Positions 32,246 through 46,466 of a stretch of DNA of 64,000 bases are shown piece by piece. The number at the start of each line of letters is the position of its first letter. Position 1 is the first letter of the stretch. Below the pieces are notes generated by a model. That model searched no databases. It was not told the origin of the DNA and saw only the letters and a list, made by a program, of their open reading frames with translations. The position numbers and the translations under genes are program-made. Source of the stretch: Planctomyces sp. SH-PL62 (GTDB lineage Bacteria; Planctomycetota; Planctomycetia; Isosphaerales; Isosphaeraceae); contig NZ_CP011273.1 in assembly GCF_001610895.1 (NCBI RefSeq), positions 4,278,001 through 4,342,000 of the forward strand. The letters are read 5' to 3'.

Positions 32246-32274
32246 GTGCCCCCCGTCAAAGGGGCGGGGGGCAC
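32246..32274. terminator. Bidirectional hairpin between convergent genes
   Basis: GTGCCCCCCG (32246-32255) pairs perfectly with CGGGGGGCAC (32265-32274). It sits 11 bp after the ceramidase-like stop, and its right arm lies within the last codons of the minus-strand MBL gene, so it can serve both transcripts. Confidence 0.6.
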
Positions 32275-33092
32275 TCGTCCAGGATCGCCCCGATGGCTTT
32301 CAGATAGCGATCGGCCGATCGGTTCACGGCCTCCTTCGCGTCGTGGTCGATCTGTAGTCCGGTCGTGAAGCCGTAGATCCGGTCGAAAGCGAACGGCTCG
32401 ACGGCGGCCACGGCCCGCCGGACGGCGTGCGCGGGGAGCGGGATGTAGTTGGGGTAGGAGTACATGAAGCTGACGTGACGGCGATCCGGGCAGACCTGCA
32501 GCACGTCCCCGGCAAGGATGACGCCACGACCTTCCGCCCCGTCCGGCCAGTGGAGCACCGTTGCGCCATCGAAATGGCCGCCGCAGCGGATCAGCGTGAT
32601 CGAATCGTGCAGCGGGAGACTTTCCCCCGTCCAGTAGCAGACGGCGGGGGCCGGTCTGGCCACCCATCGTCGATCCGAATCATGAACATGGACGGGGACT
32701 CCTCCGAACGCGCGGCTCCACTCGATCATCGAGCTGTAGTAGTGAGGGTGCGAGATGGCCACGGCTGCGATCCCGCCGAGATCTTCGACCGCTGAGATGG
32801 TCTTCTCATCGATCAGGGAGATGCAATCCCAAAGGATGTTGCCGCCGGGAGACTGGAGCAGGAGCGCCCTCTGGCCGATCCCAAACTTTGGGGCCGTCAC
32901 GAAGCTGCTAAGCCTCGACTCCTCTTCTTTGATCACGTTCTCATGGCCTGATCGAAGGGCTTCGAGCGTCGTCCATTTCTGACCTTCCAGCCCGACGTAC
33001 TGCCGTTCATCCTCGCAAATCATGCAGATTTGAGGACCGGCCGATGCGGCTCCATACTGGACGCCGCAGGTCGAGCAAATCGGGTGGATCAT
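32256..33092 (-). CDS. MBL-fold metallo-hydrolase-like protein with N-terminal zinc ribbon
   Basis: A 278-residue protein. Cys pairs C6/C9 (C-S-T-C) and C23/C26 (C-M-I-C) suggest an N-terminal zinc ribbon. The metallo-beta-lactamase fold follows, but the canonical H-x-H-x-D-H is reduced to H-P-H-Y-Y-S-S (H115, H117); G-G-H-F-D-G (H173) and L-A-G-D (D196) remain. The metal site is therefore incomplete or altered, and activity is uncertain. It is the last gene of a minus-strand run with two HAD phosphatases and a Gfo/Idh protein. The start at 33092 follows the HAD gene by 45 bp. Confidence 0.8.
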   Translation of the reverse strand: MIHPICSTCGVQYGAASAGPQICMICEDERQYVGLEGQKWTTLEALRSGHENVIKEEESRLSSFVTAPKFGIGQRALLLQSPGGNILWDCISLIDEKTISAVEDLGGIAAVAISHPHYYSSMIEWSRAFGGVPVHVHDSDRRWVARPAPAVCYWTGESLPLHDSITLIRCGGHFDGATVLHWPDGAEGRGVILAGDVLQVCPDRRHVSFMYSYPNYIPLPAHAVRRAVAAVEPFAFDRIYGFTTGLQIDHDAKEAVNRSADRYLKAIGAILDECPPPL

Positions 33093-41800: not shown

Positions 41801-42628
41801 ATGGCCTGCTCATTGGTCAAGAAGTCGGTGCTTGGTGCGGCCCTTGGAGCCGGGACGCTGTTCCTGGTGTTCGGCACGCACGCCCCCAGCTACGTGAAGA
41901 CCGCGTTCCACAAGGTGAGGCGAGACGCCAAGAGCATGGTGCCCCTCCCCTTCGACATCGATCGGGCCCGCGAGGAGATCTCCAGCCTTGAGCCGGCGAT
42001 CCGCGAGAACATCGAAAAGCTCGCCCGCGCCGAGGTCGACGTCGAGCACCTGGATAAGGAAGTCGTCGCCATCCGGGCGAACATGGACACCGAGAAGACG
42101 GCGATGCTCACCCTTCGCGAGAGCCTCAAGACGGGCGACTACCGCCTCGCCGGCCACAGCCGGGTCGCCTACACCGAGGACGAGGTCAAGAACGACCTGG
42201 CCCGTCGCTACGACTCGTACAACAACGTGAAGAAGATCCTGGAAGCCAAGGAATCGACGATCAAGGCCAAGCAGAGCGAGATCGTGGCCTTCCGCAAGCA
42301 ACTGGTCACGATGATGGCCCAGAAGAAGACCCTGACCACCAAGCTCGACGAGATCGAGGCCCGCCTCCGTCAGATCGAAGCGACCCAGACGTCGAACGAA
42401 TTCCAGCTCGACGGCGGGGCCCTGTCCCACGCTCGGGAGACGGTCGCCGACCTGGAGAAGAAGCTCGAGGTGATGGCTCGCAAGGCCGAGATGGAAGGCC
42501 GCTACGCCGAATCCGGGGTGCCCGTCGAGGTCAACCCCTCCCGCGACGTCGTCCAGGAGATCGACGCTGAGTTCACCCCCGCGTCCAGCCCCAGTCCCGA
42601 GGTCAAGACCGGCGGGAAGAGCCTCTAA
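41801..42628 (+). CDS. Membrane-anchored coiled-coil protein
   Basis: A 275-residue protein with one N-terminal membrane segment (about 10-27, V-L-G-A-A-L-G-A-G-T-L-F-L-V-F-G). A long, strongly charged heptad-rich helix runs from about residue 50 to 240. A short Ser/Pro tail ends it. It resembles phage-shock-like or cell-envelope coiled-coil proteins only in general form; no family was recognised. The ATG at 41801 has GGAG upstream; the in-frame extension to 41696 lacks coding character. A strong hairpin follows the stop. Confidence 0.8.
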   Translation: MACSLVKKSVLGAALGAGTLFLVFGTHAPSYVKTAFHKVRRDAKSMVPLPFDIDRAREEISSLEPAIRENIEKLARAEVDVEHLDKEVVAIRANMDTEKTAMLTLRESLKTGDYRLAGHSRVAYTEDEVKNDLARRYDSYNNVKKILEAKESTIKAKQSEIVAFRKQLVTMMAQKKTLTTKLDEIEARLRQIEATQTSNEFQLDGGALSHARETVADLEKKLEVMARKAEMEGRYAESGVPVEVNPSRDVVQEIDAEFTPASSPSPEVKTGGKSL

Positions 42629-42700: not shown

Positions 42701-42874
42701 CAGTTGTCGGATCGCGACGATGGGCCGGCCGGCGATTACGGCCTCCCCGCCCCGCCCCCCGCATTGCCGCCCGCGCGTCAGGCGAAGGACGGACCTCGGC
42801 CCTCACGACGCCTCGCTCGACGGGTTGAGCGGCGTCAGATATCCAGCGTAAGATGTGCGGAGAGCGAGAACCCC

Positions 42875-44435
42875 ATGGTCACTCCGGGCGGCGAATCAAC
42901 CATGATGGGGCATTGGCGAATCGTGCTGCGACAGGCCGAGGAGGCCGCGCGGGGCGGACGGTACGAGGAAGCTTTCGCCCTGGCCGGCCGACCCGAAGTC
43001 GCCGACCATAACCAGGCTGTGCAGTTTCGAGGTCGGTTAGGCCTGGAGCTGATCGCCCGGGCGACCCGCCGAGCCTCGTCCGACGACCTCTCCGGCGCGG
43101 TCGACGACCTTCGTCTGGCCGAACGACTCGGAGCCCCCCGACTCACTGGCCGCCGCCCGGCTCGGCCTGGCCGACCTCGTCGCCGACGAGATCCGCGGCG
43201 ACCTGGAAGTGGGCGAGCCGATACGGGCGCTCGACCGTATCGAGACCCTGGCCCGAGACAAAATCGGCGGGCCTTCCTTGCGACGCTTTCGGGAGATCGC
43301 CGACGCCTGGCGACAGGCGACGACCGAAGCCCGCCGCGGCGAATTCGGCCACGCCCACGAACACTTCGACCGCGCCGAGCGACTCGCGGCGGGGGCGGGA
43401 GCGATCGCCGTCCAGAATGCGGTCGCCACGGCTCGACGCGACCTCGAGGTCCGCCAGAAATCGGCGTCGCCTTTGGTCGAGGAACTTTACACTGCCCTGT
43501 CCGGGGGCGACTGGCCCAGGATCCTGGCCGCCGCCGAGGCCGTGGTGGTCACCATTCCCGATCACCCAGCGGCCCGCCAGGCGCGTGCGAACGCCTGGCA
43601 GCGGATCGCCGCCATCGGCCCCTCAAGCGGCTCGCAATGGGCGCGCCGCACCGCCGAGCCCGCGCGGATCGTCCGCGACGCCTCGGCGTCGGAGGGCCAG
43701 GGTCGTTCTGCCGAGGAGCCGCCGACGCGAAGACACGGCGAGGGCCGCGTCTTCCCGATGCTGAAGCCCGCGGCTCCCGGCCGCCGCCACGACGCCGAAC
43801 CCGATCGCCCGCTGGCCCGCGCCTCGGCGGTGGGGCCGAAGGGCCGTTTTCTGCTCTGGGCGGACGCCGTCGGCGGCTTCCTCGTCTGCCTGGATGACCG
43901 CGTCGTTCTGGGCCGTGCCGGCGCGGACAGCCCAGCGGACGTCCCCTTGATGGGAGACGTGTCGCGAAACCACGCCACGCTCGTCCGGGGGAGCGAGAGC
44001 TACCTGCTGGAACCACATCAGGAGTCGTACGTCAACGGCCGACGCGTGATCGAGCCGACCGTCCTCCGGAGCGGCGACGTGATCCGCCTGGGCTCGACGG
44101 TCGAGCTGGAGTTCCGCCAACCAAGTCCGTTCAGCGCCACGGCCCGGCTCGCGATCGTCAGCCGGCATCGCCTCCCGATCGCGGTCGACGGCGTACTGCT
44201 CATGGCCGAGACCTGCATCGTCGGCCCCGAAAGCCAGGCGCACATCTCAGCATCGACGCTCCGGGACCCCGTGGTCCTCTATCGCCAGGGGGACTCGCTC
44301 TGGTGCCGGGCCAAGGGAGGCTTCGAGGTCGACGGCCGCCCCTGCATGTCGCGGGCTCAGCTCGCGATGACGTCCAGCGTGCTGGGCGAGGGCTTCTCGT
44401 TCAGCCTCGAGCCCTTGAGTCCGAGTTCGGTCTGA
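42875..44435 (+). pseudogene. FHA-domain protein gene with a one-base frameshift
   Basis: Two consecutive frames make one protein. Frame 1 (42875 to about 43139) encodes a helical TPR-like N-terminus (R-Q-A-E-E-A-A-R-G-G-R-Y-E-E-A-F-A-L). Frame 2 (to 44435) continues the same helical pattern and ends in an FHA domain (V-L-G-R, S-R-N-H-A-T-L, Y-V-N-G-R, G-D-V-I-R-L-G). The join is at a run of six C (43134-43139). Five C would read G-A-P-D-S-L-A-A-A-R-L-G-L-A, continuing smoothly. It is either a real mutation, a slippage site or a sequencing error. FHA domains bind phosphothreonine, fitting the kinase gene directly downstream. Confidence 0.75.
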
Positions 44436-44444
44436 TCCAAGAGC

Positions 44445-46466
44445 GTGTCCCGATCGGTCCGCGCCGCAACGACCCGGGTGGACCCCGAGAAGGCGGGGAA
44501 ATCCCAGGCCGCGGCCCAACATTCCCTCACCCCCGGCGAACTGACGATGGGCCGGAAGGAATTCCCCGTGGCTCGACGCGAACAGCTACCGGAACCTGGA
44601 GCGGAGCAACCGATGGGCGTGACGGCCGCAAACCGGGTCGACGAACAGCTCGACGAGACGGTCATTTATCACGAAGAAGAGGCGTCGGGCTTCTTCTCCG
44701 GAAAGCCGACGGGAAACGTCCTCATGTCTGAATCCACGACCATGCGACAGCCTGGAGGCCGTTACGCCTTCGGCTCCGGCGACCGCCCGCTCGAAGGCTA
44801 CACCATCAAGCGAGCCGTCGGCCGGGGAGGATTCGGCGAGGTCTATTACGCGACCTCGGACTCGGGTCGAGAAGTCGCCTTGAAGCTCATCCTGCGCAAT
44901 CTCGACGTGGAGCGTCGGGGCGTCGTGCAGTGCATGAACCTCAAGCATCCGAACCTCCTGACGATCTTCGACCTGAAGTCCAACGAGGCGGGCGACGCGT
45001 TCGTCGTCATGGAATACGTCGCGGGACCGAGCCTGGCTCAGGTGCTTCGCGAAAATCCGGATGGCCTCCCCGCCGACGAGGTGCGTCACTGGCTCAGAGG
45101 GCTGGTCGAAGGCGTCGCCTACCTCCACGACCACGGCGTCGTCCACCGCGACCTCAAGCCGGCGAACCTCTTCATGGAAGAGGGCGTGGTCAAGATCGGC
45201 GATTACGGCCTGGCCAAGCTGATCACCGCCAGCCACGGCAGCGAACACTCCGAGAGCATCGGCACCTGTCACTACATGGCCCCGGAGATCGGCTCCGGCA
45301 AGTACAACAAACCGATCGACGTCTATGCCGTCGGCGTCATCCTCTACGAGATGCTGGTGGGCCGCGTACCGTTCGACGGCGAGACCGTCAACGAGATCCT
45401 CATGAAGCATCTCACCGCCCGCCCCGACGTTTCCGTGCTTCCCGAGGAGTATCGCAAGATCGTCTCGCGGGCGCTGGCCAAGGATCCGAACCAGCGACCC
45501 TCGCGGATCTATGACCTGCTGCTCCCCGCCGACGCCCCAAAGACTCCCGAGATCCGCATCATCGGGACCAGGGGAGCCGGGGCGACGGTTCGTCCCTCCG
45601 CACCGTCGGCCGAGGAGATCCATCGTATCGAGGACGAGGAGCCTGTCTTCTACATCGGTCCGGACACCGTCCCGCCGGGGCGGACGGCCTCGATCCCGAG
45701 CCGGATCGCAGCCGATTGGCGACGGATGCGGGACGCGAAAGCCCGACGGGCGCCCCGCGCTCCCTCCCGAGCCGCCGGCTTCGTCAGGCGGGCCGTCGAC
45801 GATCCGGGCCTGGGAGCGGCTCGCGGAGCCCGACCGGCCCACCAGCCTCCCGAGCCTCCACAAACTCCGACCGGCCGAGCGTGCATCGCCGAGGTGACCG
45901 CCTCGATGATCTGGGCCGCTCTCCTGGTCGCCATGTTGGTCCTGCCCGCGGCCGCCGCCCTCGGCGTCGACCCCGCTCGAGAGACCACGCGGATCGTTTT
46001 CCTCTACGGCACGGCGCTGCTGGCGACGTGGGCGGCCCTGCTCCTGAACAAGGTTCTGGAGGCCCGCAAGGTCGACGCCGTCAGCCGCCGCATGACGGCG
46101 GCGTTCGTCGGCGTGGGAGTGGGCGGCGCCGCGTACCTGCTGGCACGAGGCCTCATGCTGGAACCCCGGATGGCGGCGCTCGCGCCGGTTTATTTCGGGG
46201 CTCTCTACGCCGGGACCTCGGGATGGCCTGGACCGTCCGCCCGCGATCGCAAGAAGCGTTTCCGCCTCACCCCGTTCGCCTGGACTCTCGTGCTCGCCGC
46301 CGCCCTCGTCCCGCTCTGGGATCATCACCCCGCGGAAGGCCCCGCGATTGCGGCGATCGTCGTCGCCGCCGTGCAACTCGTCAGCCCGTGGAGCGAACGG
46401 GCCGCGCGTTACGCCGAGTACGTACGAGCCCTCGAGAAATCCGGGGACCGGACCCGGGCGGCGTGA
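44445..46466 (+). CDS. Membrane-anchored Hanks-type Ser/Thr kinase
   Basis: A 673-residue kinase. After a disordered N-terminus the glycine loop G-R-G-G-F-G-E-V is near 126-133, the ATP lysine K147, the catalytic loop H-R-D-L-K-P-A-N from 234, D-Y-G in place of DFG near 253, and M-A-P-E. The kinase domain is followed by a Pro/Arg-rich linker and about six hydrophobic helices (residues about 485-650), so the kinase faces the cytoplasm. The GTG at 44445 gives the longest frame; an ATG at 44547 is a credible alternative. It follows the FHA gene by 9 bp, and a membrane protein and an ECF sigma factor follow it. Confidence 0.9.
   Translation: MSRSVRAATTRVDPEKAGKSQAAAQHSLTPGELTMGRKEFPVARREQLPEPGAEQPMGVTAANRVDEQLDETVIYHEEEASGFFSGKPTGNVLMSESTTMRQPGGRYAFGSGDRPLEGYTIKRAVGRGGFGEVYYATSDSGREVALKLILRNLDVERRGVVQCMNLKHPNLLTIFDLKSNEAGDAFVVMEYVAGPSLAQVLRENPDGLPADEVRHWLRGLVEGVAYLHDHGVVHRDLKPANLFMEEGVVKIGDYGLAKLITASHGSEHSESIGTCHYMAPEIGSGKYNKPIDVYAVGVILYEMLVGRVPFDGETVNEILMKHLTARPDVSVLPEEYRKIVSRALAKDPNQRPSRIYDLLLPADAPKTPEIRIIGTRGAGATVRPSAPSAEEIHRIEDEEPVFYIGPDTVPPGRTASIPSRIAADWRRMRDAKARRAPRAPSRAAGFVRRAVDDPGLGAARGARPAHQPPEPPQTPTGRACIAEVTASMIWAALLVAMLVLPAAAALGVDPARETTRIVFLYGTALLATWAALLLNKVLEARKVDAVSRRMTAAFVGVGVGGAAYLLARGLMLEPRMAALAPVYFGALYAGTSGWPGPSARDRKKRFRLTPFAWTLVLAAALVPLWDHHPAEGPAIAAIVVAAVQLVSPWSERAARYAEYVRALEKSGDRTRAA

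Follow-up and report, generated by a model that had tools for sequence, protein, structure and literature searches.

A run of six cytosines at positions 43134-43139 of the window (the whole 64,000 nucleotide stretch of DNA that was analysed) divides a gene for a forkhead-associated (FHA) protein between two reading frames, and raises the question of whether the organism itself or only its sequence record carries a broken gene. The run lies in the context GGAG CCCCCC GAC, as read by inspection of the sequence, and the frame break is present in the record. The upstream open reading frame occupies frame 2 (42704-43897) and the downstream one frame 0 (43209-44435), so that crossing from one to the other at the run requires a shift of +1 (or -2). 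From the ATG at 42875 the upstream frame reads MVTPGGEST...AERLGAP, then becomes non-homologous and stays open to 43897, and the frame +1 to it reads PDSLAAARLGLAD... and stops at 44435, the C-terminal part being open as far as its normal end. The N-terminal part of the gene (42875..43138, + strand), defined by its translation, its match to a relative and a structural model of a homologue, encodes by homology the first four helices of a helical domain, and the C-terminal part (43140..44435, + strand), defined by its match to the same relative and by Pfam, encodes the remaining helical domain, a low-confidence linker and the FHA domain.

At 341 of 2000 random positions in this window of 65% GC, and at 5 of the 60 runs of six or more C or G that it contains, a join is possible that keeps 87 or more codons open upstream and 300 or more downstream. 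Joinable open frames are thus common at such a composition and alone are weak proof, and it is homology that makes the break real. The window is a piece of a 6.5-Mb contig in a genome (G000) of 6.78 Mb and five contigs, and was compared with a relative of the same genus (G001), in which a single 534-residue protein matches both pieces, residues 8-114 at 78% identity and residues 102-532 at 82%. The original prediction that the run splits an FHA-domain gene is thereby confirmed, down to its exact position.

One gene or two

The downstream part matches a single place in its own genome and is matched in 57 of 59 genomes at E 0.001, the window's own being among the 59. With the intact G001 protein as the query, 39 of 45 family genomes match at 1e-20 (again counting the window's own) and six give no match at that threshold. 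The FHA protein occupies one open frame in 36 of the 39 matching Isosphaeraceae genomes, the other three being contig-edge fragments in G026 and G034 and the window's own genome, which is the only one of the 39 with two matches in different frames. A single match was obtained in 27 of the 36, and the nine genomes with two matches were counted as one frame on the basis of identical open-frame lengths and distances divisible by three. For four of the 36 (G003, G019, G061 and G062), with open frames of 523-637 residues, one stop is recorded inside the match. Within the family, none of the four genomes of genus g6 (G010, G027, G036 and G064) matches the protein at E 1e-20, and three of them gave weak matches to the downstream part in the search of 59 genomes. 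On the best overall reading, the organism probably carries one intact gene for a TPR-like/FHA protein of roughly 520 residues.

The halves could instead be two separate genes, the FHA part having its own start at a codon such as GTG 43209, and it is outside the family that this reading finds a precedent, since 15 of 22 class-level genomes match the FHA half alone, with open frames of 210-335 residues. The original prediction had named separate halves in homologues as the observation that would count against it; the single open frame of the family relatives agrees with the proposed join. An AlphaFold model of the homologue from Paludisphaera soli, a relative of the same genus, built on a 7-sequence alignment (mean pLDDT 67.3, with blocks of 81-96 across residues 11-240), predicts 11 helices up to residue 246, followed by a linker of low confidence and a C-terminal region rich in beta structure. 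Together with the Pfam match of the C-terminal part to the FHA domain (PF00498, E 7.9e-10, 39.5 bits against a cut-off of 20.7), the modelled helices bear out the predicted order of a helical N-terminus and a C-terminal FHA domain. The junction corresponds to residues 88/89, between the helices 72-84 and 89-112, and hence would separate helix 4 from helix 5 within a single unbroken helical domain, which speaks against a boundary between two genes, as does the downstream match to G001, which starts before 43209. Two separate genes are accordingly the least credible of the explanations considered and can practically be set aside.

The number of bases involved was judged from the spacing between the motifs AE(R/K/Q/T) and LAA(A/V)R on either side of the junction. 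Among 30 loci, 22 are readable in this respect, one is the window itself, one is a hit elsewhere and six are without the motif. The spacing is identical in all 22 readable homologues, mostly reading GAPPDS, and the window is two bases shorter. Removal of one C, as originally suggested, does restore the frame, but the resulting protein would be one residue shorter than these homologues, and the description that needs a single event is therefore a loss of two bases. An excess of one C is thus probably the reverse of what happened. At the junction, one relative (L015) has eight C in frame and another (L007) six, each as an uninterrupted run.

Recoding at the run

In programmed +1 frameshifting of the prfB type a purine-rich GGAG stands shortly before the slippery codon. 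A slippage site giving two products was among the causes proposed at the outset, and for a shift of this kind or for transcriptional slippage the site has several of the expected elements: GGAG ends 2 nucleotides before the CCC codon (43136-43138), CCC followed by C permits perfect +1 re-pairing, and CGA comes next. The exact string GGAGCCCCCCGA is found once in 1.264 Mb, at this site, and the downstream RNA folds better than its shuffled versions (z -2.47, with 2 of 200 shuffles as good). The same fold score ranges from -4.3 to +1.5 in 16 intact homologues, a span that includes the value at this site. Neither a stop nor a very rare codon was found in the A site, the codon there being CGA, which accounts for 11.3% of arginine codons in 554 open reading frames; these frames also contain 105 in-frame CCC CGA pairs, and three of the pairs are preceded by GGAG at a distance of nine bases or less. 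As the unshifted frame remains open to 43897, with no stop at the site, it would yield no sensible short product.

It speaks against two products that the relatives in the family read through the site in one frame and without a shift, and conservation of a slippery site with its shift was accordingly not found among the 39 matching family genomes. The resemblance to prfB, which extends to the GGAG before a slippery codon and to the +1 direction, is superficial, and unlike prfB the window site has no in-frame stop and no relatives in the family that shift. Programmed slippage is not supported, and either form of it must be regarded as very improbable. The same low standing is given to a more specific version, in which a lineage-specific, prfB-like +1 recoding site (GGAG-CC-CCC-CGA) would yield a little of the full-length FHA adaptor, thereby tuning the signalling of the adjacent kinase.

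Frame breaks across the assembly

The two remaining causes are a sequencing error and a mutation, of which the former is favoured and the latter remains a rival. A census compared 1.264 Mb of G000 with 1.240 Mb of the largely syntenic G001 and accepted a frame change if GC at the third codon position exceeded that at the first in the matching piece of the partner genome. Twelve candidates were obtained in G000 from 520 G001 query frames with a good match, and 11 of them, spread over 10 genes, were accepted. In the reverse direction 534 G000 queries gave five candidates in G001, all with G/C runs of at most three and a wrong-frame codon-position pattern, and none was accepted. Eight of the 11 accepted breaks are located at G/C runs of 6-8, a length reached in 1.0-3.1% of equally long random stretches, and three at runs of 4-5; for the FHA site, a run of six is reached by 1.3% of such stretches. 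These counts refer to G/C runs, the only ones measured, with the one genome G001 as control. According to the census coordinates the shortfall of G000, modulo 3, is one base at nine of the 11 breaks and two bases at the other two, which lie in the FHA gene and in the gene for an 839-residue protein. A wider set of 536 query frames gave at least 14 candidates in G000.

The FHA break passes this rule through the G001 piece (codon-position GC 0.79/0.50/0.82) and not through its own. A smaller census of the window alone had used a strict rule, in which GC had to fall from the third to the first to the second position, and accepted no frame change there, the FHA gene included, because the third-position GC of the window's N-terminal part is slightly below that of the first (0.77/0.54/0.74). 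The later rule was looser and required the second position to be lowest, after which overlapping open reading frames were removed and the identity limits raised. The FHA break is the only one accepted in the window, the other candidates having a wrong-frame codon-position pattern where it was printed. One census case at about 50% identity had, on inspection, the look of a gene edge, and another was the FHA gene read in antisense. Opposite the open reading frame at 32262-32972 (- strand) of the window, G001 has a weak candidate for a coding-like frame change, possibly a gene edge and the single change that the strict rule accepted, with matches of 44 and 51% identity that fall below the thresholds of the main census.

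Among the broken genes is purL, which is expected to be necessary for purine prototrophy. It is present in G000 as a single copy, split into two frames at a run of seven C, and gives a single matched stretch in all 24 other genomes, of which four list one stop within the match beside open frames of 958-1058 residues, and one (G038) is cut short by a contig edge. The break lies at about 3,978,050 on contig C1 of G000 (L171, L172). A Pfam scan covered nine of the 10 broken genes, leaving out a 1346-residue protein, and found the AIRS, AIRS_C, FGAR-AT linker and PurS domains in the broken purL; the others scanned are an ABC ATPase, an ABC_transp_aux protein, a DUF4340 protein, the FHA protein, a YfhO-like protein, a GDSL lipase and two proteins without a family. 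The genes for the ATPase, ABC_transp_aux, DUF4340 and lipase proteins are split in G000 and form one matched stretch in each of the four same-genus relatives searched. In the ATPase search a paralogue accounts for a second, weaker match, and one genome lists one or more stops beside a 438-residue open frame, and in the ABC_transp_aux search three genomes list stops within the match beside open frames of 687-695 residues. The genes for the ABC ATPase, ABC_transp_aux and DUF4340 proteins are neighbours, each broken in frame, at about 4,050,000-4,056,300 on the same contig, an arrangement that may reflect either local low accuracy or the decay of an operon.

Since other genes, purL included, are broken alike in this assembly and are whole in related species, a loss in sequencing is the most likely cause, and a technical fault is the simplest account of many conserved genes being broken in one assembly, mostly at G/C runs. 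It is proposed that the true sequence contains a longer C tract or C-rich stretch, of which two bases would be missing from the record, and that the length of the homopolymer was under-called and then left uncorrected in the assembly. Enrichment at runs is not in itself proof of error, as slippage at homopolymers also yields true mutations. Nor have runs been collapsed wholesale, as G000 keeps G/C runs of 8-11 and does so more often than G001: 464 kb of G000 contain 32 runs of eight, six of nine, two of ten and one of eleven, and 480 kb of G001 contain 15 of eight and four of nine. Three further points tell against an error: three of the 11 breaks occur at runs of only 4-5, the three broken neighbours would also fit operon decay, and purL would be dispensable to a purine auxotroph.

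Runs of six or more are slippage spots, and a real and recent frameshift, in which replication slippage cut two bases from the C tract in this strain, would leave a truncated, probably non-functional FHA protein and a young pseudogene. Such an event would be in keeping with the confinement of the break to this genome within the family and with the in-frame C runs of L015 and L007 at the same place. Both halves of the gene are under purifying selection, with dN/dS between G000 and five relatives of 0.10-0.22 for the N-terminal and 0.15-0.29 for the C-terminal part, values such as are also obtained between relatives that both have the gene intact. Neither relaxed selection nor additional disablements were seen in either part by dN/dS and a check of the open frames; purifying selection is expected of an intact gene and equally of a very recent break, so a very young pseudogene would look identical. 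The recurrence of the same class of break, with 11 accepted in 1.264 Mb and purL among them against none in G001, makes a mutation rather unlikely, though it is still the chief rival. We infer a technical rather than a biological cause, and consider it probable that a homopolymer under-call in the assembly breaks an ordinary gene; the frame break is most likely not a real biological feature. For quality control this means that frameshifts at G/C runs in this assembly are not to be read as pseudogenes or as recoding without the reads.

The gene group and known systems

The FHA gene stands directly before a gene for a Ser/Thr protein kinase (44445..46466, + strand; Pkinase E 1.4e-50 in Pfam), as had been predicted, and a homologue of the kinase gene adjoins it in all 30 loci, the window's included. 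The gene upstream (41801..42628, + strand), which belongs to the same conserved neighbourhood, is coiled-coil-like according to weak Pfam matches below the cut-off and was found at 26 of the 30 loci, again with the window's included, several loci ending at contig edges. All three genes occur together in these 26. The order in the window between 41801 and 48400 is coiled-coil-like protein, FHA protein, Ser/Thr kinase, a 217-residue protein without a Pfam match, an ECF sigma factor and a zf-HC2 protein. The conserved group of FHA and kinase genes could reasonably be studied for its own sake, separately from the frame break. By analogy with other pairs of a kinase and an FHA protein, the most likely role of the FHA protein is that of an adaptor which reads phosphothreonine for the adjacent kinase, and it probably binds the phosphorylated partners of that kinase.

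Passages of two papers (PMC8011154, PMC12007338) name frame-breaking indels in homopolymers as the predominant, or a systematic, kind of error in assemblies of long reads, and the second reports A/T runs as the commoner site. In this assembly, too, conserved genes are split by short gaps that fall mostly in single-base runs; the difference is that the FHA gene is two bases short by comparison with its relatives, and the present comparison is one of G/C runs. For the protein itself, the closest structural hits of the P. soli model are to FHA domains, EmbR and TPR solenoids; they score weakly, and only two matches reach E <=0.001. EmbR is a DNA-binding regulator with a Ser/Thr kinase partner. 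Unlike EmbR, the FHA protein has no DNA-binding domain detected by Pfam, and the two superpose poorly overall (TM 0.16 when normalised to query length, rmsd 23.2). The mycobacterial EmbR (PDB 2ff4), the second structural match, nevertheless combines helical repeats with an FHA domain as the modelled homologue does, and with a kinase gene alongside, the FHA gene of the window invites comparison with TPR/FHA-kinase pairs of this type.
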